NCBI GenBank assembly: GCA_030681475.1
Contig: JAUXWT010000108.1
Location: forward strand, 1-64,000
DNA: 64,000 nt
DNA from: Bacteroidales bacterium
Lineage (GTDB): Bacteria; Bacteroidota; Bacteroidia; Bacteroidales; FEN-979
Direction of reading: 5' to 3'
The notes under the pieces were generated by a model. The model saw nothing but the letters and a program-made list of their open reading frames with translations. It was not told the origin of the DNA and searched no databases. Shown piece after piece: positions 19,830 to 60,060 of this stretch. A program made the translations under genes and the position numbers. Numbering within the stretch: the first letter of the stretch is position 1; every line of letters starts with the position of its first letter.

Positions 19830-19956
19830 AACTGTAGAGGCGCAAAAAAATTACAACAGATGCGCGATAAATTTAACAATAGAGGCGCAATAAATTTAAC
19901 AGTAGAGGCGCAATAAATTTAACAGTAGAGGCGCATTACGATGCGCCTCTACTGTT
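19830..19956. repeat. Tandem repeat ending in a perfect palindrome between two tRNA genes
   Basis: Units of about 23 bp with the core AACAGTAGAGGCGCA plus ATAAATTT occur at 19830, 19855 (shortened), 19875 and 19898. The fifth (19921-19936) forms a perfect 16-bp inverted repeat with 19941-19956 around a 4-nt loop. The units differ by small substitutions. There are no unique spacers, so it is not a CRISPR. It may be a REP-like palindromic family that has amplified its left half. Confidence 0.85.
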
Positions 19957-28848: not shown

Positions 28849-29781
28849 TCAATGGCTGTCCAACCCATGCAACATATAGATCATATGCATCAGCGACTTT
28901 GAAATCTCAGCCATGTATTCATTCACCGCTCTTACACTGCCGGGAAGGGTGAATACCAGCGATTTATCCATTACGCCCGCGACAGAGCGGCTCAGCAAGG
29001 CAGCGGGTTTATCAGCGCCGTATTTCATCCGGATCATCTCCATGATGCCAGGAATCTCTTTATCCAGCATGGGTTTTACGACATCAGGGGTGAAATCGCG
29101 CAGCCCGATCCCTGTTCCGCCGGTGGTGATCACCAGGTCAAAAAGTTCGTCTTTGGCTTTATGAAGCAATTCCTCCAGCAGATGAGGATTATCGGGGATA
29201 AGGTAAGTGCAAAATGCAAAGTGCAAATGGCAAACTTCAAAATGGGTTGCCAGTAGTTCGGTGATTCTCGGGCCTGATTTGTCTTCATATTCGCCTGCAC
29301 TGGCACGGTCGCTGAGGGTAATGATCATCGCACGGTAAATTTTCGGATGATATTCCGGTTCCATGCCGGCATTAAGGGTGCCGGGACTCACTACGCGGCA
29401 AAAGATGCCCTCCTTCGGCATGACGCAGTTCCCCACCTCCTTGAAAATGGCACAACTACTCCCATGGCACTCTTTGCCTATCTGGGTGACTTCGAGTTCG
29501 ATATCACCACAGGTAAAGCGATCCAGCGGATGTGCCGACCACAGATCCATTCCCGTTGTGGTGAGATTCTCTGCAAACTCACCGGGCATGACCTTTCTGT
29601 TTGCTTCTGCTTCAAACTTTGCAATACTTTCCGTTCCAAGCAGGCTCACCTGTCTGTTCCAGTGCCCGGCATGCGCATCGTCCTTCACACCGTAATGCGT
29701 CAGTTCGATCTGATCAACGGGCTTCTTAACCGTGCCTTTCCGTTCTGAAATATTGACAGAAGTTATTTTAATCCTTTGCAT
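28849..29781 (-). CDS. MOSC domain-MogA/MoaB fusion protein
   Basis: A 310-residue two-domain protein. Residues ~1-145 form a MOSC domain (YGVKDDAHAGHWNRQVSLL; GEFAENLTTTGMDL; the conserved Cys in GKECHGSSCAIF), a fold that binds molybdenum cofactor or transfers its sulfur. Residues ~150-310 form a MogA/MoaB domain (MIITLSDRASAGEYEDKSGP; VITTGGTGIGLRDFTPD), which adenylylates molybdopterin before metal insertion. The loop at residues ~181-193 is encoded by five heptamer repeats (29205-29239). It is the last gene of the cofactor operon. The fusion couples late cofactor steps in one chain (inference). Confidence 0.9.
   Translation of the reverse strand: MQRIKITSVNISERKGTVKKPVDQIELTHYGVKDDAHAGHWNRQVSLLGTESIAKFEAEANRKVMPGEFAENLTTTGMDLWSAHPLDRFTCGDIELEVTQIGKECHGSSCAIFKEVGNCVMPKEGIFCRVVSPGTLNAGMEPEYHPKIYRAMIITLSDRASAGEYEDKSGPRITELLATHFEVCHLHFAFCTYLIPDNPHLLEELLHKAKDELFDLVITTGGTGIGLRDFTPDVVKPMLDKEIPGIMEMIRMKYGADKPAALLSRSVAGVMDKSLVFTLPGSVRAVNEYMAEISKSLMHMIYMLHGLDSH
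29205..29246. repeat. Degenerate heptamer repeat inside the mogA domain
   Basis: Successive units AAGTGCA, AAATGCA, AAGTGCA, AATGGCA, AACTTCA follow with an exact 7-bp period and read in frame as the loop HFEVCHLHFAFC. Same unit family as the intergenic repeat at 29812-29846. Confidence 0.8.
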
Positions 29782-29811
29782 GTTCTATATCATTACTGAT
29801 GCCGGCTTTTA

Positions 29812-29846
29812 TTTTGCATTTTGACTTTGCCCTTTTCCCTTTGCAT
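29812..29846. repeat. Heptamer repeat between moaC and mosc-mogA
   Basis: Units TTTTGCA, TTTTGAC, TTTGCCC, TTTTCCC, TTTGCAT in a 7-bp register fill half of the 70-bp gap between two operon genes. Confidence 0.75.
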
Positions 29847-29851
29847 TTCTT

Positions 29852-30319
29852 TCACACATCTTTCTTTGTTTTTTCGGTCAGCCTGATCTCCCCGATCAAC
29901 ATCGTTTTATCCACAGCCTTGCACATATCGTAAATGGTGAGCAGTGCGACTGCGACGGCGGTAAGCGCTTCCATTTCAATGCCTGTTTTACCCGTGCACC
30001 GGGTCAGGCTCTCCACTTTTACCCCATTTTCATCCAATGTTGCCTTTACGTCAAGTTTGGAGATCTGCAACGGATGGCAAAGCGGGATCAGTTCGCTGGT
30101 TCGTTTCCCCCCCTGGATCCCCGCAATTTCTGCGATCGTGAGCACATCGCCTTTCATCATCCGGTTTTCCCTGATCAGTTCCAGGGTTTCCCGCTTCAGG
30201 GTTATGTGACCTGATGCCCCCGCTGTCCGTAACTGATCCGGTTTTCCGCTGACATCCACCATTTTCGCCTTTCCTGCATTGTCAACATGCGACAAGGCCT
30301 GTTTTTTTATTTTCACCAT
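29852..30319 (-). CDS. moaC: Cyclic pyranopterin monophosphate synthase
   Basis: A 155-residue MoaC, converting the MoaA product 3',8-cyclo-GTP to cyclic pyranopterin monophosphate. Family motifs are KAKMVDVSGK near residue 18, GKRTSELIPLCHPLQI (residues ~71-86, with the catalytic region) and GKTGIEMEALTAVAVALLTI followed by YDMCKAVDK (~109-137). The ATG-GTG start at 30319-30314 lies in the first unit of an octamer repeat array (30311-30358), so the repeat itself supplies the initiation codon. Lies between moaA and the MOSC-MogA fusion. Confidence 0.95.
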   Translation of the reverse strand: MVKIKKQALSHVDNAGKAKMVDVSGKPDQLRTAGASGHITLKRETLELIRENRMMKGDVLTIAEIAGIQGGKRTSELIPLCHPLQISKLDVKATLDENGVKVESLTRCTGKTGIEMEALTAVAVALLTIYDMCKAVDKTMLIGEIRLTEKTKKDV

Positions 30320-30358
30320 TTCAAATTTCGCTATTTCGCCATTTCGCTACCTCGCTAC
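30311..30358. repeat. Octamer repeat array between moaA and moaC
   Basis: Six 8-bp units in register: TTTCACCA, TTTCAAAT, TTCGCTAT, TTCGCCAT, TTCGCTAC, CTCGCTAC. It fills the whole intercistronic gap and overlaps the first codons of moaC. Confidence 0.85.
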
Positions 30359-30362
30359 CTTT

Positions 30363-31163
30363 TTAACCCCCAATATTATGAAACTCCCCCGTAACATTCA
30401 CACCTCCCCGCTCCGGCTTCCGTCCGACGGCCATTTCAAGCGCTGTACGGATGCCCAGTTCACGGGCGCTGAACTGGATGTCGTCAAACAGACAGGGGCG
30501 GATCATGCCACTGGCCGTGAGTCTAAGCCGGTTACAATTTTTACAGTCGCCGCCATGCCCGTTTTCAACGATCGTAAAGCGCCCATCTGACAGGCTCATT
30601 TCATGGATGAACCTGGCTTCGAGGCCGTTTTCCCTGCAGTATTCCCTCACCGCCGTTGCATCAGGTTCATCGGAGGAGTTTCTTACCACACAGTTAATTT
30701 TTACAGGGGTCAACCCCGCTTTTTTAGCTGCTTCTATCCCTTTAAATACCTTGCGGATGTCGCCGCCACGTGTAATGGTTCTGAATTTTTCGGGATCAAG
30801 GGTGTCAAGACTGATGTTTATCCGGTGAAGACCGGCCTTTGCCAGGCCTGCGGCAAATTCAGGCAACAAAATTCCATTGGTGGTCAGGCCGAAATCCCTG
30901 ATTCCCTGTATGGCCGTTATTTTCTCAATCAACGAAAGGATTCCTTTGCGAACCAGAGGCTCACCGCCTGTTATCCTCACTTTGGCGACGCCCAGACTGA
31001 CTGCCTCCCTGATCACCTCCACGATCTCTTCGAAACTCAGTATATCTTTATGTTCCAGCAATCTGATCCCTTCGGCCGGCATGCAATAGGTGCACCGGAG
31101 GTTGCAGCGGTCGGTGACCGAGACCCGAAGGTAGTTGATCTGCCGTTTATAGTGGTCGTACAT
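30363..31163 (-). CDS. moaA: GTP 3',8-cyclase, compact form
   Basis: Radical SAM enzyme that starts pyranopterin synthesis. The first cluster motif is CNLRCTYC (residues ~20-27), with ITGGEPLVR as the SAM-binding block. The C-terminal cluster motif is CKNCNRLRLTASGMIRPCLF (~211-230), and the protein ends with the Gly-Gly tail (NIGG) needed by MoaA. At 266 residues it is about 60 shorter than typical MoaA; the segment between the radical SAM core (RFIHEMSLSDGRF) and the second cluster is reduced. All ligands are present, so it is read as a compact functional variant and not a truncation. It overlaps the 3' end of moeA by 17 bp. Confidence 0.9.
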   Translation of the reverse strand: MYDHYKRQINYLRVSVTDRCNLRCTYCMPAEGIRLLEHKDILSFEEIVEVIREAVSLGVAKVRITGGEPLVRKGILSLIEKITAIQGIRDFGLTTNGILLPEFAAGLAKAGLHRINISLDTLDPEKFRTITRGGDIRKVFKGIEAAKKAGLTPVKINCVVRNSSDEPDATAVREYCRENGLEARFIHEMSLSDGRFTIVENGHGGDCKNCNRLRLTASGMIRPCLFDDIQFSARELGIRTALEMAVGRKPERGGVNVTGEFHNIGG

Positions 31164-32361
31164 CTACGTTTTCTCCTTTGTTTATATTTGAAGTTCCGAT
31201 CTCCAAGATCATAATTCCAAGGGCAACCGTGAATGCATTGATATGGGCAGACCCATGATATTCGACCGGAAAAACTGCACCATCCTTTATTACCACAGGA
31301 ATCAACGATTTCCGATCAGATTTCCGCCGGGTGAAATCAATTCCCATTGGCAGTTTGAACTCAACTGGTGTAGTATCACAACCCATCATTCGCCGCAGAA
31401 ACGGTTTGACCAGCATTTCAAAAAGGACGAATGACGATACAGGATTTCCGGGCAGCCCAAAAATAAATTTGTTATTCCGGCGCCCAAAAACAGTTGGTTT
31501 TCCGGGCCTGATGGCTATTTTTTCAAACAGGATCTCAAAGCCGGCTTCCCTCATAACTGCAGGTACAAAATCAAAATCACCCATAGATACGCCACCGGTG
31601 AGCAGCGCCACATCATTTTCTTCAAGTGCAAGTTCGATAATCTTGCGCATTTCAGGGCCTTCATCTGCGACAATTCCATAATAGGTTGGGAGAGCTGGAA
31701 CAGTTTTAAGTTGAGCCACCAATTGCATAGCGTTTGAGTTTCTGATTTTTGCCAATCCGGGTTTAACACTTGGTTCCACGAGTTCATCCCCGGTGGAGAT
31801 GACACCTATCCCGGGAAGTTGAGCAACCATGGGGTTTACGGCGCCTACAGTGGCCAGGACCGCAACCATGGCCGGGGAGATCAGAACGCCTTTCTGTAAT
31901 ACCAGGTCGCCTGATTTTATATCCTCACCCTGGTAACAAATGTTCTTTCCTGTAATTTCCCGGGTAATCCTGACTATGTTATCCCCGGCCAATTCGGTAT
32001 CTTCAATCATGATTACGCAGTCGGCGCCCGGAGGTACCATAGCGCCGGTCATAATTTTGGAACACTGACCGGGCATAATCGTTTTTTGCGGAACTGTTCC
32101 GGCCGGGATGGTTTCGATTATTTGTTGGGGCACAATATATAGTTGGGGCACAAAATGTTGGGGCACAAAATTTTGTGCCCCAACGAATGTGCGGCAAGCA
32201 TAACCATCCACCGCCGATTTGTCGAACGGCGGCATATCCGTGTCGGAAAAAATGTTTTCGGCAAGGACTCTCCACAATGAATCGGGCAGCGCCACTCGTT
32301 CATTCCCAATCGTATTTGTTTGAGAAAGTACGGTATTCAAAGCATCTTCAAATAAAACCAT
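31147..32361 (-). CDS. moeA: Molybdopterin molybdenumtransferase
   Basis: A 404-residue MoeA, which inserts the metal oxyanion (Mo or W) into adenylylated pyranopterin. Recognised blocks: PPFDKSAVDGYACR (residues ~39-52), IPAGTVPQ, SKIMTGAMVPPGADCVIMIE, GVISTGDELVEP, the GGVSMGDFDFVPA metal-site loop (~253-265) and GLPGNPVSSFVLFEM. Residues ~59-79 (FVPQHFVPQLYIVPQQ region) are an insertion encoded by three copies of a GTTGGGGCACAA element, the last forming a perfect palindrome, at 32124-32184. This loop is absent from usual MoeA proteins. Confidence 0.94.
   Translation of the reverse strand: MVLFEDALNTVLSQTNTIGNERVALPDSLWRVLAENIFSDTDMPPFDKSAVDGYACRTFVGAQNFVPQHFVPQLYIVPQQIIETIPAGTVPQKTIMPGQCSKIMTGAMVPPGADCVIMIEDTELAGDNIVRITREITGKNICYQGEDIKSGDLVLQKGVLISPAMVAVLATVGAVNPMVAQLPGIGVISTGDELVEPSVKPGLAKIRNSNAMQLVAQLKTVPALPTYYGIVADEGPEMRKIIELALEENDVALLTGGVSMGDFDFVPAVMREAGFEILFEKIAIRPGKPTVFGRRNNKFIFGLPGNPVSSFVLFEMLVKPFLRRMMGCDTTPVEFKLPMGIDFTRRKSDRKSLIPVVIKDGAVFPVEYHGSAHINAFTVALGIMILEIGTSNINKGENVDVRPL
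32124..32184. repeat. In-frame palindromic repeat inside moeA
   Basis: GTTGGGGCACAA begins at 32124, 32142 and 32157; the last copy is the left arm of a perfect 28-bp palindrome (32157-32184). Total length of about 60 bp preserves the moeA frame and adds about 20 residues. Confidence 0.9.
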
Positions 32362-32417
32362 TTCGATTTACGATTATAGATTTACGATTTACGAATATAG
32401 GTCAATTTAGCGTCCGC

Positions 32418-32457
32418 CATTTCACCATTTCGCTATTTCGCTATTTCGCTATTTATT
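32418..32457. repeat. Octamer repeat array between wtpC and moeA
   Basis: Units CATTTCAC, CATTTCGC, TATTTCGC, TATTTCGC, TATTTATT in an 8-bp register. The wtpC stop TAG (32449-32451 on the minus strand) lies within the array. Confidence 0.85.
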
Positions 32458-33501
32458 TATATATCTCACCGCCGTCGCTTTAAAATGGACCCAGCATGTA
32501 TTTCCGGCCTTCAGCCCGAGTTTTTCAACCGATTCCCGCGTAATAAGCGCATGTATTTCAATACCGGCATCAATGGTCACCTCGACACCGCCTGCATTTG
32601 GGTGGATCTCCACGACGGTTCCCCTGAAATTATTTGTCGCGCTTGTTTCAACCGGTTTTACCGATAACAAGACATCCTCGCCCCTGATAAGGATAAAGCC
32701 ATCACCCCCGGGGGCATCTGTTACAACACGAATAGGGATATTATTGCCGGTATAGGCAACAACGGTTTGATCAGTGGTCACTAATTTTACAGGAAAGAAA
32801 TTTTTCATTCCGATGAAATGGGCCACAAATTCTGATTTCGGATGGTTGAACACGGCAGAAGGTGTTCCTGATTGAATTATTTCGCCTTTGTCGATCACAG
32901 CGATTCTTGTGGCCAGGGAAAGCGCCTCCTCATAATCGTGGGTAACATGAAGGATTGTCTGCCCTTTGCGGTGAATTTCCCTCAGCAGCCGGCGGAGGTC
33001 ACCCTTAAGCCTGGTGTCGAGCGAAGAGAGGGGTTCATCCAGCAGCAAACATGCAGGCTGTTGAATCAGGGTACGCCCAAGTGCGACACGTTGCAGTTCA
33101 CCTCCCGATAAGGTTCCGGGTTTACGGTTTAACAGTCCGGGTATTTCCAATTCATCCGCGATGGTTTTCACTATTTCATGTTTTTCTTCCCTGCTCATTT
33201 TTTTGCCATGAAGGGAATATGCGATGTTTTCTCCGACAGTAAGATGCGGAAAAACAGCATGATCCTGAAAAACCAATCCAATGGGCCGGTTCTGGATTTT
33301 TTCATAAGTAACATCTTTGTCTTCAATCAGAATTTTACCTGAATCGGGTGCGACCAACCCTGCAATGGTCTCGAGCACCATTGATTTACCTGCTCCGGAT
33401 TCGCCCAGCAGGATAAAATAGTCACCTTGCTCCACCGAAAAAGAGACCTCCTTCAGCGAGAAATCATCAAACCGTTTCGAAATATTCCTCAGTTCCAACA
33501 T
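32449..33501 (-). CDS. wtpC: Tungstate/molybdate ABC transporter ATP-binding protein
   Basis: A 350-residue ATPase. Walker A is GESGAGKSM (residues ~33-41), the Q-loop is VFQDHAVFPHL, the signature is TLSGGELQRVALGR (~129), Walker B is CLLLDEPLSSLD and the H-loop is HVTHDYEEA. The C-terminal ~110 residues carry a TOBE/molbindin-like domain (NNFRGTVVEIHPNAGGVEVT). It energises oxyanion uptake with WtpA and WtpB encoded upstream. Its stop codon is within an octamer repeat. Confidence 0.9.
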   Translation of the reverse strand: MLELRNISKRFDDFSLKEVSFSVEQGDYFILLGESGAGKSMVLETIAGLVAPDSGKILIEDKDVTYEKIQNRPIGLVFQDHAVFPHLTVGENIAYSLHGKKMSREEKHEIVKTIADELEIPGLLNRKPGTLSGGELQRVALGRTLIQQPACLLLDEPLSSLDTRLKGDLRRLLREIHRKGQTILHVTHDYEEALSLATRIAVIDKGEIIQSGTPSAVFNHPKSEFVAHFIGMKNFFPVKLVTTDQTVVAYTGNNIPIRVVTDAPGGDGFILIRGEDVLLSVKPVETSATNNFRGTVVEIHPNAGGVEVTIDAGIEIHALITRESVEKLGLKAGNTCWVHFKATAVRYINK

Positions 33502-33508
33502 ACTCCTA

Positions 33509-33548
33509 ATTTCGCTATTTCGCTATTTCACTATTTCGCTATTTTTTT
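33509..33548. repeat. Octamer repeat array at the wtpB-wtpC junction
   Basis: Units ATTTCGCT, ATTTCGCT, ATTTCACT, ATTTCGCT, ATTTTTTT. On the minus strand it encodes the wtpB tail NSEIVK and its TAG stop, then the gap before wtpC. Confidence 0.85.
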
Positions 33549-34305
33549 CTTTCGCCAGCCATCTCAACACAATAAACAATGTCAGCGAGATCAGGATGAA
33601 AACTACTGACACCGGACGTGCATATTTCAACCCAAATGACCCGAACCGTTCATAAATAAGCACCGGAGCAATCATCGGGTGGTAGGCCACAACGATCACG
33701 GCGCCGAATTCACTCATCCCGCGAGCAAACATCAGGATGAGACCCGATATGATATTCCTCCACGCCAGGGGAAGGGAGATCGTAAAAAAGACCCGGAAAG
33801 GTGATGCTCCCAGCGTAAGGGCCGCCTTTTCGAGGCGCAAAGGTACCCCGGCAAAACCATCTCTGGCGGCATTGATGAGGAAAGGGATGCTTACAAAAGC
33901 CATGGCTATGGCAATCCCGGCCGGATGTCCAACGAAATTGAGCCCAACGGCCGAACCCATCTTTCCAAGTACCGATTCGCGCGAAACAAATCCAAGCAGG
34001 GCAATCCCGGCTGCCGAATGAGGAATCACCACCGGCAGATCAATGATCCCGGTAACCAGTTTTTTCATCGGGAACTGCTTACGGGCCAGCAGGTATGCCA
34101 GGGGGATGGCAGCAATGGAAAAAACAAGTGTCCCTGCCAAGGAGGTATATATAGTGAGCCAGATACTGTCCTGCACCTCCGTCTCACGGGCGGTCTCAAA
34201 CAGTTGCGTGGGGGTGGTATCCAGGAACATCCCGGCCAGCGGCGCTACTATTAACAGCAACACCAGCGAACCCAGGAAAATAAATGTCAGTTGTAACCTA
34301 TTCAC
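33523..34305 (-). CDS. wtpB: Tungstate/molybdate ABC transporter permease
   Basis: About 260 residues with six hydrophobic helices and the ABC-permease EAA loop (EKAALTLGASPFRVFFTISL, ~residues 167-186). The helix IIDLPVVIPHSAAGIALLGF is typical of ModB/WtpB. The frame is open to an ATG at 34389, but the extra N-terminal 28 residues (Pro/Arg-rich) overlap a better-looking 39-codon ORF. I therefore choose the GTG at 34305 (VNRLQLTFIFLGSL), which starts just before the first membrane helix. The last six residues and stop are supplied by the octamer repeat. Confidence 0.85.
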   Translation of the reverse strand: MNRLQLTFIFLGSLVLLLIVAPLAGMFLDTTPTQLFETARETEVQDSIWLTIYTSLAGTLVFSIAAIPLAYLLARKQFPMKKLVTGIIDLPVVIPHSAAGIALLGFVSRESVLGKMGSAVGLNFVGHPAGIAIAMAFVSIPFLINAARDGFAGVPLRLEKAALTLGASPFRVFFTISLPLAWRNIISGLILMFARGMSEFGAVIVVAYHPMIAPVLIYERFGSFGLKYARPVSVVFILISLTLFIVLRWLAKEKNSEIVK

Positions 34306-34417
34306 GTTTTGAGGTTCCTTGTAATTCAACCCTGATCCCCGAAAGCGCCTTGACGGCCCGGTCCGATTTGTCGGGAATGGCCATGACATCGGAATCGCTT
34401 TTTGTTGGTTTTTTCAT
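34298..34417 (-). CDS. Possible 39-residue protein in the wtp operon
   Basis: ATG at 34417 opens a short frame, MKKPTKSDSDVMAIPDKSDR followed by AVKALSGIRVELQGTSKRE, ending in TAG overlapping the GTG start of wtpB (GTGAATAG). The composition is charged and natural, unlike the overlapping frame that would extend WtpB. It could be a tiny translation-coupling or regulatory peptide. No family is recognised. Confidence 0.4.
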   Translation of the reverse strand: MKKPTKSDSDVMAIPDKSDRAVKALSGIRVELQGTSKRE

Positions 34418-34497
34418 CTGTTTATCTCAACCCTGACAAAATGAAATATTTACAAACAGGGTACATATTATTATCGTTGTTAATCTATTCATGTATT

Positions 34498-35448
34498 TCA
34501 TCTTGTGGTGAATTGTTTCAATTCGGCCGGAAGCTTGTCATAATTGGGATTTTGCTGCGGAATCACCGATGGCTGTCCGTTTTTTTCAAGAATTTTAATT
34601 CCCTGTTCTTTCGACAGCATGAATTGAATATAGGCAAGCGCTGCCGTTTTATTTGGCGCATTTGTAATCATGGCGACCCCGTAGATCATGGGTTCGCCCT
34701 TCATCAGCGCTTTTTGTCCCGGCTCCTTGCCATTGATGGGGACTACGGCTGTTTTGTAGAGGTCAGCGTATTCTGTCTCTTTCAGGTTAATCTCTGCGGG
34801 GAGAATAAGGTATTTGAGATTATGCTGGATGGCAACCGATTTGTAGAGAAAAATGAAATCGACCGATTGCGTTTCCAAAAGCGCGATCAGGTCAACCTCT
34901 TTCGGGCGCATGTAGTTCTGATCTTTCGCCGTCAGGAGATTTGTAAGGCCGGGTTTATTATAGTGTTTTTCAGCCAGTTGCATGGTCATCACCGACCGGT
35001 AGCCGCATGGATCGGAATTGGGATCGGCCCGGCCGTAAGCGACATCCTTTTTCAGCAGGAGATCGTACCAGTTTTTCTCATTAATCTGGCCGGCATATCT
35101 CGATTTTTCCGTATAAACAATACACATTTCATTGGAAACAAATTTGATATTCCAGGATGAATACTTTGGGATCAGCATGTTGTCAATAACTTTGTAATCT
35201 GCCGAGGCCATGATATCACACGGTTTATTCAGGTCGGTGATCTTACGGGCACATTCAACACTGCCGGCCGATTCCATCATGATGTTGACGCCGGGATAGA
35301 TCTCTTTAAATGCCGCAGAAATCTCCTTCATCGGTACGGAAAGGCTTCCGGCATGAAAAATGATCAGGTCGCCCGAAAGTGGTTGTTGAGCAATTCCCGG
35401 ATAAAAAGCGAGGAAACAAAGCCACAGGAATGTGAATGTAAATTTCAT
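34498..35448 (-). CDS. wtpA: Tungstate/molybdate-binding protein
   Basis: A 316-residue secreted binding protein with signal peptide (residues 1-20, ending GIAQ). The core FHAGSLSVPM, MESAGSVECARKITDL, CDIMASADYKVID and YGRADPNSDPCGYRSVM are strongly diagnostic of the WtpA group, which binds tungstate and molybdate with octahedral coordination using acidic residues. The C-terminal half contains GEPMIYGVAMITNAPN. It lies downstream of a ModE-like regulator and upstream of permease and ATPase genes. Preference for tungstate is inferred from family and from the downstream AOR-type enzyme. Confidence 0.92.
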   Translation of the reverse strand: MKFTFTFLWLCFLAFYPGIAQQPLSGDLIIFHAGSLSVPMKEISAAFKEIYPGVNIMMESAGSVECARKITDLNKPCDIMASADYKVIDNMLIPKYSSWNIKFVSNEMCIVYTEKSRYAGQINEKNWYDLLLKKDVAYGRADPNSDPCGYRSVMTMQLAEKHYNKPGLTNLLTAKDQNYMRPKEVDLIALLETQSVDFIFLYKSVAIQHNLKYLILPAEINLKETEYADLYKTAVVPINGKEPGQKALMKGEPMIYGVAMITNAPNKTAALAYIQFMLSKEQGIKILEKNGQPSVIPQQNPNYDKLPAELKQFTTR

Positions 35449-57712: not shown

Positions 57713-57779
57713 ATTTCACCATTTCACCATTTCGCTATTCCGTTATTTCCATTTTCGCTGCCTCGCTACCTCGCTACTT
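57713..57779. repeat. Octamer repeat array between carboxyltransferase and BCCP genes
   Basis: About eight units related to ATTTCGCT (ATTTCACC, ATTTCACC, ATTTCGCT, ATTCCGTT, a 15-bp irregular stretch, GCCTCGCT, ACCTCGCT) cover nearly the whole gap. Confidence 0.8.
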
Positions 57780-59509: not shown

Positions 59510-60046
59510 ATGTCAGACCTGATCCACATTTCACCGGTTCAACTTCAAACGCCGCTCTGGTATGCTGTTTATACCCGTTCGAGATCCGAAAAAAAGGTGA
59601 TGGAAAATTTAACTGCAAAGGGAATTGAAGCCTATGTACCGCTGCGAAAAGTGATGCGCCAGTGGAGTGACCGGAAACGAATGGTGGAAGAACCGATCAT
59701 CAGGTCATATTGTTTTGTAAAGGTTTCAAATATAGAATACTACGAAGTATTGAACACGCCAGGAGCCGTCAGATATATCTGGTTTTCCGGTAAACCCGCC
59801 GTCATACCCGACCGGCAGATCGAAACATTAAAGGCCATCACAGGATCGGATGTGGAGGTTGAATGCTTACCGGATACCTTTCAACCCGGGATCCGGGTAA
59901 GGGTGAACGCAGGTCCGTTGATCGGGCTGTCGGGCGAATTGGTCAATATTTCAAATAAGAAGAAGGTGATCATCAGGATCGATCATCTTAACCAGGTGAT
60001 CACACTCTCGATTTCGCCGATGCTGATAGAAATAGTGAAATGGTGA
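59510..60046 (+). CDS. UpxY/NusG-family transcription antiterminator
   Basis: A 178-residue specialised NusG paralogue. The NGN domain (~15-110) starts WYAVYTRSRSEKKVMENLTA and includes GIEAYVPLRKVMRQWSDRKR and RSYCFVKVS. The KOW domain (~125-175) has GIRVRVNAGPLIGLSGELV. In Bacteroides, UpxY proteins prevent premature termination of the capsule operon they head. Sugar-nucleotide genes follow directly, which supports the same job here. The last residues EIVKW and the stop are encoded by an octamer repeat. Confidence 0.88.
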   Translation: MSDLIHISPVQLQTPLWYAVYTRSRSEKKVMENLTAKGIEAYVPLRKVMRQWSDRKRMVEEPIIRSYCFVKVSNIEYYEVLNTPGAVRYIWFSGKPAVIPDRQIETLKAITGSDVEVECLPDTFQPGIRVRVNAGPLIGLSGELVNISNKKKVIIRIDHLNQVITLSISPMLIEIVKW

Positions 60047-60060
60047 AATAGCGAAATAGA
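60029..60060. repeat. Octamer repeat at the upxY stop codon
   Basis: GAAATAGT, GAAATGGT, GAAATAGC, GAAATAGA: four 8-bp units that are the reverse complement of the ATTTCGCT family and contain the upxY TGA. Confidence 0.85.

Follow-up and report, generated by a model that had tools for sequence, protein, structure and literature searches.

Palindromic array within the moeA reading frame

How does a gene for a core cofactor enzyme come to carry a perfect 28-bp palindrome, along with further copies of one of its halves, inside its open reading frame? The question is raised by moeA in a 64,000-nucleotide stretch of a draft Bacteroidales genome (contig JAUXWT010000108.1 of assembly GCA_030681475.1), which is called the window below. 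This genome is designated G000, related genomes carry other G numbers, and C numbers denote contigs. The reading that we prefer, with a probability of about 0.85, is that the insert arose by RAYT-type insertion of a REP into a tolerated protein loop, followed by tandem growth in whole codons (RAYTs are REP-associated tyrosine transposases). The features concerned are as follows.

28849-35448, minus strand: likely transcription unit of wtpA, wtpB-like and wtpC-like transporter genes, moeA, moaA, moaC and a MOSC/mogA-type gene
31147-32361, minus strand: moeA (molybdopterin molybdotransferase-like), an ORF of 404 aa with the insert near its 5' end
32124-32184, minus strand: in-frame double-foot REP array of two half-units and one full palindrome, encoding VGAQNFVPQHFVPQLYIVPQQ
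32157-32184, no strand assigned: full palindrome GTTGGGGCACAAAATTTTGTGCCCCAAC, a perfect 28-bp double-foot REP in phase 0 on the coding strand
32142-32156, plus strand: half-unit of the array, 15-nt step
32124-32141, plus strand: half-unit of the array, 18-nt step

The sequence GTTGGGGCACAA is found in the window at 32124-32135, 32142-32153 and 32157-32168 on the plus strand and at 32173-32184 on the minus strand, such that the half-units are spaced by 18 and 15 nt. When read along the coding strand, the GTTGGGGCACAAAATTTTGTGCCCCAAC palindrome comes first and is followed by two further copies of its 3' half that extend to position 32124. A first-pass annotation of this DNA had described three tandem copies of GTTGGGGCACAA, the last of which forms the perfect palindrome, and had stated that the insertion leaves the moeA frame undisturbed. 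We confirm its coordinates, and the 404-aa ORF indeed runs through the array as VGAQNFVPQHFVPQLYIVPQQ. The same annotation counted about 20 added residues, which is right for the repeat (it spans about 20 codons) but not for the net gain, which is about 14 because the loop has 30 residues rather than the 16 of nearly all relatives outside the genus.

Each arm of the palindrome is 14 nt long, whereas the longest arm in 60 Markov-1 simulated windows is 11 nt. A scan for GTNG palindromes with 12-nt arms and no more than two mismatches recovers only two sites in the 64-kb window, namely the moeA array and positions 19925-19952. On the coding strand the array is predicted to form a hairpin of -31 kcal/mol over 86 nt (z -6.33; 0 of 200 shuffles equally stable), and thus the strong mRNA hairpin anticipated within the coding region is borne out. 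The palindrome begins with a GTTG foot and ends with CAAC, so that the foot is also present as its reverse complement (a double foot). GTTG therefore stands at both ends of a perfect 28-bp hairpin, where GTAG-type REPs are defined by a GT[AG]G foot on a perfect or nearly perfect hairpin of 20-40 bp. We conclude that the insert is a genuine in-frame REP-type palindrome with a double foot (GTNG...CNAC), in line with the REP-like nature first proposed, and that it belongs to an already described kind of element. Assignment to the CGTC-type REPs or to the Rickettsia RPE was rejected on the basis of the GTTG and CAAC ends, and a CRISPR was rejected since the units are contiguous, step by 15 or 18 nt and lie within a gene.

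The host protein and its gene cluster

The encoded protein matches PF03453, PF00994 and PF03454 above their gathering scores and the TIGR00177 domain above its cut-off, while NCBIfam models for full-length MoeA-type proteins score below their curated cut-offs. The suggested location in a domain III/I loop is not supported. The insert falls within the MoeA_N match of Pfam (residues 4-173), which is described as 'domain I and II', and starts a few residues past the conserved SAVDGYACR motif. An AlphaFold2 model built with 40 sequences has a mean pLDDT of 89.7 and a fold that matches the gephyrin E and Escherichia coli MoeA structures. Its sole segment with a pLDDT below 50 (residues 61-73) is inside the insert and is flanked by strands at residues 53-56 and 79-85. 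The insert loop is predicted by this model to be disordered.

Gene order and spacing suggest that the wtp, moe, moa and MOSC/mogA-type genes form an operon. Profile scores within this cluster are above the cut-off for wtpA and moaC and below it for wtpB, wtpC and moaA. The MoaA protein (30363-31163) comprises only 266 aa, reaches 279.2 bits against the curated cut-off of 284.05 for the MoaA model, and has only a partial Pfam match to its C-terminal domain. Short tandem repeats with units of 8 or 16 bp, such as (ATTTCGCT)n, are located at 30325-30355, 32415-32454, 33509-33544, 57713-57733 and 60029-60059, and gaps between genes of the cofactor cluster are among these places. Similar runs of TTTCACCATTTC adjoin REPs in G014 (L042 and L043).

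Loop length and relic copies among relatives

There are 80 moeA loci retrieved from named genomes, of which 79 were parsed (L126 was left out). Ten of these were assigned to the genus and have loops of 18-35 residues, and the other 69 were counted as non-genus. The non-genus loop has 16 residues in 68 of 69 loci (67 by script and L142 by eye, the script having mis-cut the latter to give 54), and L156 has 18. Because this loop is so uniform, the insert is not an old conserved feature of the protein; the protein-level conservation in distant homologues that had been named as refuting evidence is not seen. A second, overlapping set consists of the moeA genes of 30 of the 43 genomes with a moeA match. 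All 19 genus members in it have loops of 17-43 residues, with at least 19 residues in 16 of them. In the 11 members of the family outside the genus, the loop has 16 residues in seven cases and 18 in four. By sequence comparison, then, the loop is nearly fixed outside the genus and expanded in most of the genus.

An intact palindrome of the moeA type is present in only two of the 30 genes, those of G000 and G014. The absence of an intact palindrome from the other 28 agrees with the empty site that was to be looked for in relatives, but that site is not placeable to the base because loop length varies. The G014 palindrome occupies the same loop in the same reading phase, and its flanks differ. 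The remaining 28 loops were tested for relics by letter shuffling at p <0.01, and four of them, all from genus members, fall under this threshold. The G008 loop holds a decayed REP copy with an ungapped run of 18 identical positions out of 23 (0 of 2000 shuffles score as high). Weaker relics are found in G007, G012 and G017, with letter-shuffle p values of 0.006-0.008 and codon-shuffle p values of 0.006-0.014. These relics suggest older rounds of insertion. No relic is detected at p <0.01 in the other 13 genus loops tested, which comprise that of G018, the closest relative, and 12 more. The many expanded genus loops that have no REP trace weigh against REPs as the sole cause of expansion.

The main alternative is that a single insertion occurred in the genus before its species split, and that selection or gene conversion preserved it in G000 and G014 while it decayed in the other members. 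The shared loop and shared phase of the two intact copies would fit such a history, as would the decayed copy in the same loop of G008 and the weaker relics. However, G000 and G014 are separate in the moeA tree, which places G000 with G018 (89/82) and G014 with G011 plus G004 (91/89), albeit with several weak forks, and none of G018, G011 and G004 retains an intact palindrome or a significant relic. In addition, both palindromes are perfect even though the two MoeA proteins are only 69% identical. Because G000 and G014 are not sisters in the tree and the flanks differ, we favour two insertions into one permissive loop, and we regard a single ancestral insertion as possible but unlikely.

Copies elsewhere in G000, in G014 and in other genomes

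A search of its own genome for further copies of the palindrome had been proposed as a check, and none were found. All four exact GTTGGGGCACAA 12-mer matches in G000 are within moeA, and the 28-mer with no more than three mismatches is found only at this locus in the 111 contigs of the draft (98.67% complete). Among 100 genomes, including G000, this search detects the element only in G000 and G014. The exact 28-mer has no match in a wider contig collection, from which the records of the window itself or its near relatives may be absent. In a 395-genome sample of the phylum that does not include G014, a search with the GTAG form at no more than two mismatches recovers only G000 and G198, the latter with two variants that are both located between genes.

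The copies are instead found in G014, a member of the same genus. This genome has at least nine, with eight at no more than three mismatches and one more on C103, which is adjoined by a still more diverged copy. Three of these are read in frame within genes, namely moeA, elbB and an mnmL/ytqA-like radical-SAM gene, and the other six are intergenic, including one on C476 that supplies the stop codon of the preceding gene. Among the eight closer copies, GTAG is found at both ends in one, at one end in five and at neither end in two, and the 3' foot is CTAC or CAAC in seven of eight and TTAC in the other. In elbB (NF008747 above cut-off), 18-nt half-units end in the palindrome, and the empty site is clean in all 17 other genomes aligned (the alignment excludes G003, which has a partial match only, and a second partial copy in G001). 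The radical-SAM gene of G014 scores 124 bits with TIGR01212 (MnmL/YtqA) against a cut-off of 180, and its ORF is cut by the contig end.

The gene for this radical-SAM protein was found in 18 of 19 genomes, and its loop is variable within the genus. In G018 (L210 on C12) it carries about ten 24-nt GTCGGGGCGGGTTC units that resemble a REP half; the frame closes right past this array and the gene looks broken. The G008 loop includes a 15-nt stretch with 14 positions identical to a related REP, GTAGGGGTTCAAAATTTTGAACCCCTAC (0 of 2000 shuffles). Arrays such as these may be mis-assembled, since the related genomes are draft assemblies and many are MAGs.

Three base pairs, all of them compensated, distinguish the GTAGGGGTTCAAAATTTTGAACCCCTAC REP from the moeA palindrome. 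The GTAGGGGTTCAAAATTTTGAACCCCTAC REP is found once in G000, in frame in a RAYT gene on C33, and three times in G014, where it is in frame in recO, just upstream of a likely start codon, and intergenic. In recO (L301, G014:C349:10160-10187; TIGR00613 above cut-off) the REP is accompanied by an extra half-unit with a 21-nt step. The general statement that REP-like elements are normally excluded from genes is therefore too strong here, given three in-frame copies out of nine in G014 and the related REP in recO, and intragenic REPs have in any case been published (Di Nocera et al. 2013, PMC3733652).

These distributions bear on the remaining alternatives. One is that the hairpin is a selected RNA or DNA device that tunes expression of the cofactor operon, for instance through translation pausing, mRNA stability or a binding site. 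The stability of the mRNA hairpin, its location near the start of moeA with moaA and moaC downstream, and its identical position in G014 would suit this function. However, the palindrome is intact in so few of the moeA genes compared, and the same element is found in elbB, the radical-SAM gene and six intergenic places of G014, that we consider this explanation very unlikely. Another is that replication slippage alone built the palindrome from moeA sequence, without a mobile element, as the existence of half-unit arrays and the lack of a second copy in G000 might indicate. The same 28-mer is, however, located with one to three mismatches at seven places in G014 outside moeA, in addition to C103, and the variant that differs at three base pairs is present in the G000 RAYT and G014 recO. 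Slippage alone does not yield the same GTNG palindrome at unrelated loci. Dispersed copies thus disfavour this proposal strongly, and we reject it as highly improbable. Least probable of all is an assembly or binning artefact, since the frame is open through the array, a second species carries an insert of this kind in the corresponding loop, and the locus is situated 32 kb into a contig of 169 kb, even if repeats are error-prone in a draft of 111 contigs.

RAYT genes and their REPs

In favour of RAYT-type insertion, G000 encodes several RAYT-like genes, which answers the proposed check for a TnpA-REP transposase. The C33 RAYT has HUH and Tyr motifs along with its in-frame GTAGGGGTTCAAAATTTTGAACCCCTAC. 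A RAYT-like ORF on C29 (L249, G000:C29:43930-44457) contains three in-frame GTAGAGACAAGGCAATGCCTTGTCTCTAC-type REPs with a 54-nt step, only one of which has both feet, and copies of this type are also found between genes on C65 and C5. The HUH motif of the C29 ORF is at residue 25, compared with residues ~80-100 in most relatives read, and thus the ORF looks N-terminally truncated. Model NF047646 matches the C33 and C29 ORFs with E-values of 4.8e-12 and 1.2e-12 at 46-48 bits, below its cut-off of 80; Pfam Y1_Tnp matches the C29 ORF above cut-off and does not match the C33 ORF. The C44 RAYT, which is the best PF01797 match of G000, was set aside as a different type, with a 170-aa ORF that lacks a REP translation.

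A search with the C29 protein gave matches in 33 of 61 genomes, G000 included. From 50 fetched loci, a subset of these matches, 36 distinct RAYT ORFs were read (at least 90 aa with an HUH motif), two of which, both from G014, have a REP segment in common and are possibly parts of a single gene. A GTNG palindrome is present in 25 of the 36, in 23 cases with no more than one mismatch, and the same scan detects none in the other 11. The REP is downstream of the HUH motif in 22 of the 25. When applied to 66 moeA, elbB and radical-SAM ORFs, the GTNG scan recovers the four known inserts and two weak matches with two mismatches each. None of the 36 RAYT ORFs carries exactly the moeA REP.

Array steps and reading phase

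Tandem growth can be compared with a second array in the window.

19830-19956, plus strand: second double-foot REP array, with GTAGAGGCGCA half-units at 22/23-nt steps and then GTAGAGGCGCATTACGATGCGCCTCTAC at 19925-19952; intergenic, between tRNA-Gly and tRNA-Leu

At no more than three mismatches, GTAGAGGCGCATTACGATGCGCCTCTAC is found in G000 only at this position, and once in G013 with three mismatches. The intergenic steps are 22, 23, 23 and 23 nt, whereas all in-gene steps are multiples of three: 15 and 18 nt in moeA, 18 in elbB, 21 in recO, 24 in the G018 radical-SAM gene and 54 in the C29 RAYT. However, a 15-nt step is also seen for a half-unit between genes in G198, and the two REPs of an intergenic pair on C17 of G014 are 39 nt apart. 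The contrast between in-gene and intergenic arrays comes from few cases and is thin.

Reading phase is nearly constant. Of the 25 RAYT ORFs that bear a REP, 24 use phase 0, which reads V-E-T or V-G-A. The same phase is used in all five other in-gene cases, namely the two moeA genes, elbB, the radical-SAM gene and recO (the last by translation). These counts are not independent, since the RAYTs have a common ancestry and so, perhaps, do the two moeA inserts. In its GTAG form the moeA palindrome is closed by a stop codon in one phase and open in two, and in its GTTG form it is open in all three. A broader possibility is that double-foot REPs in this Bacteroidales lineage are a recurrent generator of protein loops, adapted in effect to translation, that enters the same loops across species and leaves relics. 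The near-constant phase, growth by codon multiples, the loops shared in moeA and the mnmL/ytqA-like gene, and the decayed relics are points for it. We consider this generalization doubtful, in view of the G198 half-unit that steps by 15 nt between genes and of the expanded loops that have no trace of a REP.

Proposed origin and implications

We favour RAYT-type insertion because of the perfect GTNG...CNAC palindrome with its strong hairpin, the dispersed copies in G014, the empty site in elbB, the RAYTs of G000 that themselves have in-frame REPs, the contrast in loop length and the low pLDDT of the loop. A single-stranded REP copy, perhaps mobilized by a RAYT/TnpAREP (HUH-Y1) protein, would have entered a permissive MoeA loop just downstream of SAVDGYACR. 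Half-units would then have multiplied in tandem, for which slipped-strand or hairpin-assisted replication is the simplest route, and presumably only those steps that added whole codons (18 and 15 nt) survived selection. The product would be a flexible VGAQNFVPQ-type loop that MoeA tolerates, and the effect of the insert on the enzyme is probably close to neutral. The mobilizing enzyme is putative, given the single locus found for this REP in G000 and the absence of exactly this REP from the RAYT ORFs read.

With this insert, the known in-frame mobile palindromes of working genes gain an example from the Bacteroidota that lies in a core cofactor gene. The genus offers REP-free, decayed and intact states of one loop, and thus the path from selfish DNA to loop sequence can be traced. 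It also advises caution with proteins from draft genomes, in which a loop insertion that shows a VGA...P or VET...SL motif may be a translated REP and not a conserved domain.

Comparison with known systems

No published REP in moeA was found in a literature search from which subscription papers were largely missing and which did not extend to supplements, and a search for translated REP motifs returned no paper. Quentin et al. (2018, PMC6006769) tie double-foot REPs to the RAYTs of TnpAREP subclass 2.4 in Bacteroidetes and Cyanobacteria. In this subclass the genes contain REPs in frame, as a rule between HuH and Y, and some of the REPs are footed at both ends. The moeA REP resembles them in its two footed stem ends, its Bacteroidetes host and its in-frame location in a peripheral loop, and G000 resembles the hosts in having RAYT-like ORFs with NHIH/NHVH and Tyr motifs. 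It differs in that the host gene is moeA rather than a transposase, that a single locus was found in its own genome, and that its foot is GTTG where theirs are GT[AG]G.

In Di Nocera et al. (PMC3733652), more than half of the intragenic GTAG REPs are dimers or groups that code for 20-30 residues, and intragenic REPs are considered possibly neutral in linkers or loops. The moeA REP is like these GTAG and CGTC REPs in being grouped, loop-coding and located in an ordinary gene. DNA-repair genes are often hit in that survey, and G014 recO is a further case of this class. The survey also reports two Xanthomonas species in which different REPs are located close to one and the same position of recB. 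It lists GTAG repeats from Proteobacteria, Cyanobacteria, Chloroflexi and PVC, and the repeats it lists from Bacteroidetes are all of the CGTC type, whereas here the host of a GTNG REP is a member of the Bacteroidota, and moeA is not among the targets that the accessible text names. The Rickettsia RPE, also described in that paper, are likewise palindromic repeats that are read in frame in genes whose proteins are probably functional. Unlike the moeA REP, they have a CGTC foot (RPE-4 and RPE-6) or are longer (RPE-1), are found in a different phylum and are not known to be associated with transposase genes. What is added to this earlier work is a loop of a core enzyme that is shared between species, a series of REP-free, relic and intact states, and a near-constant reading phase.
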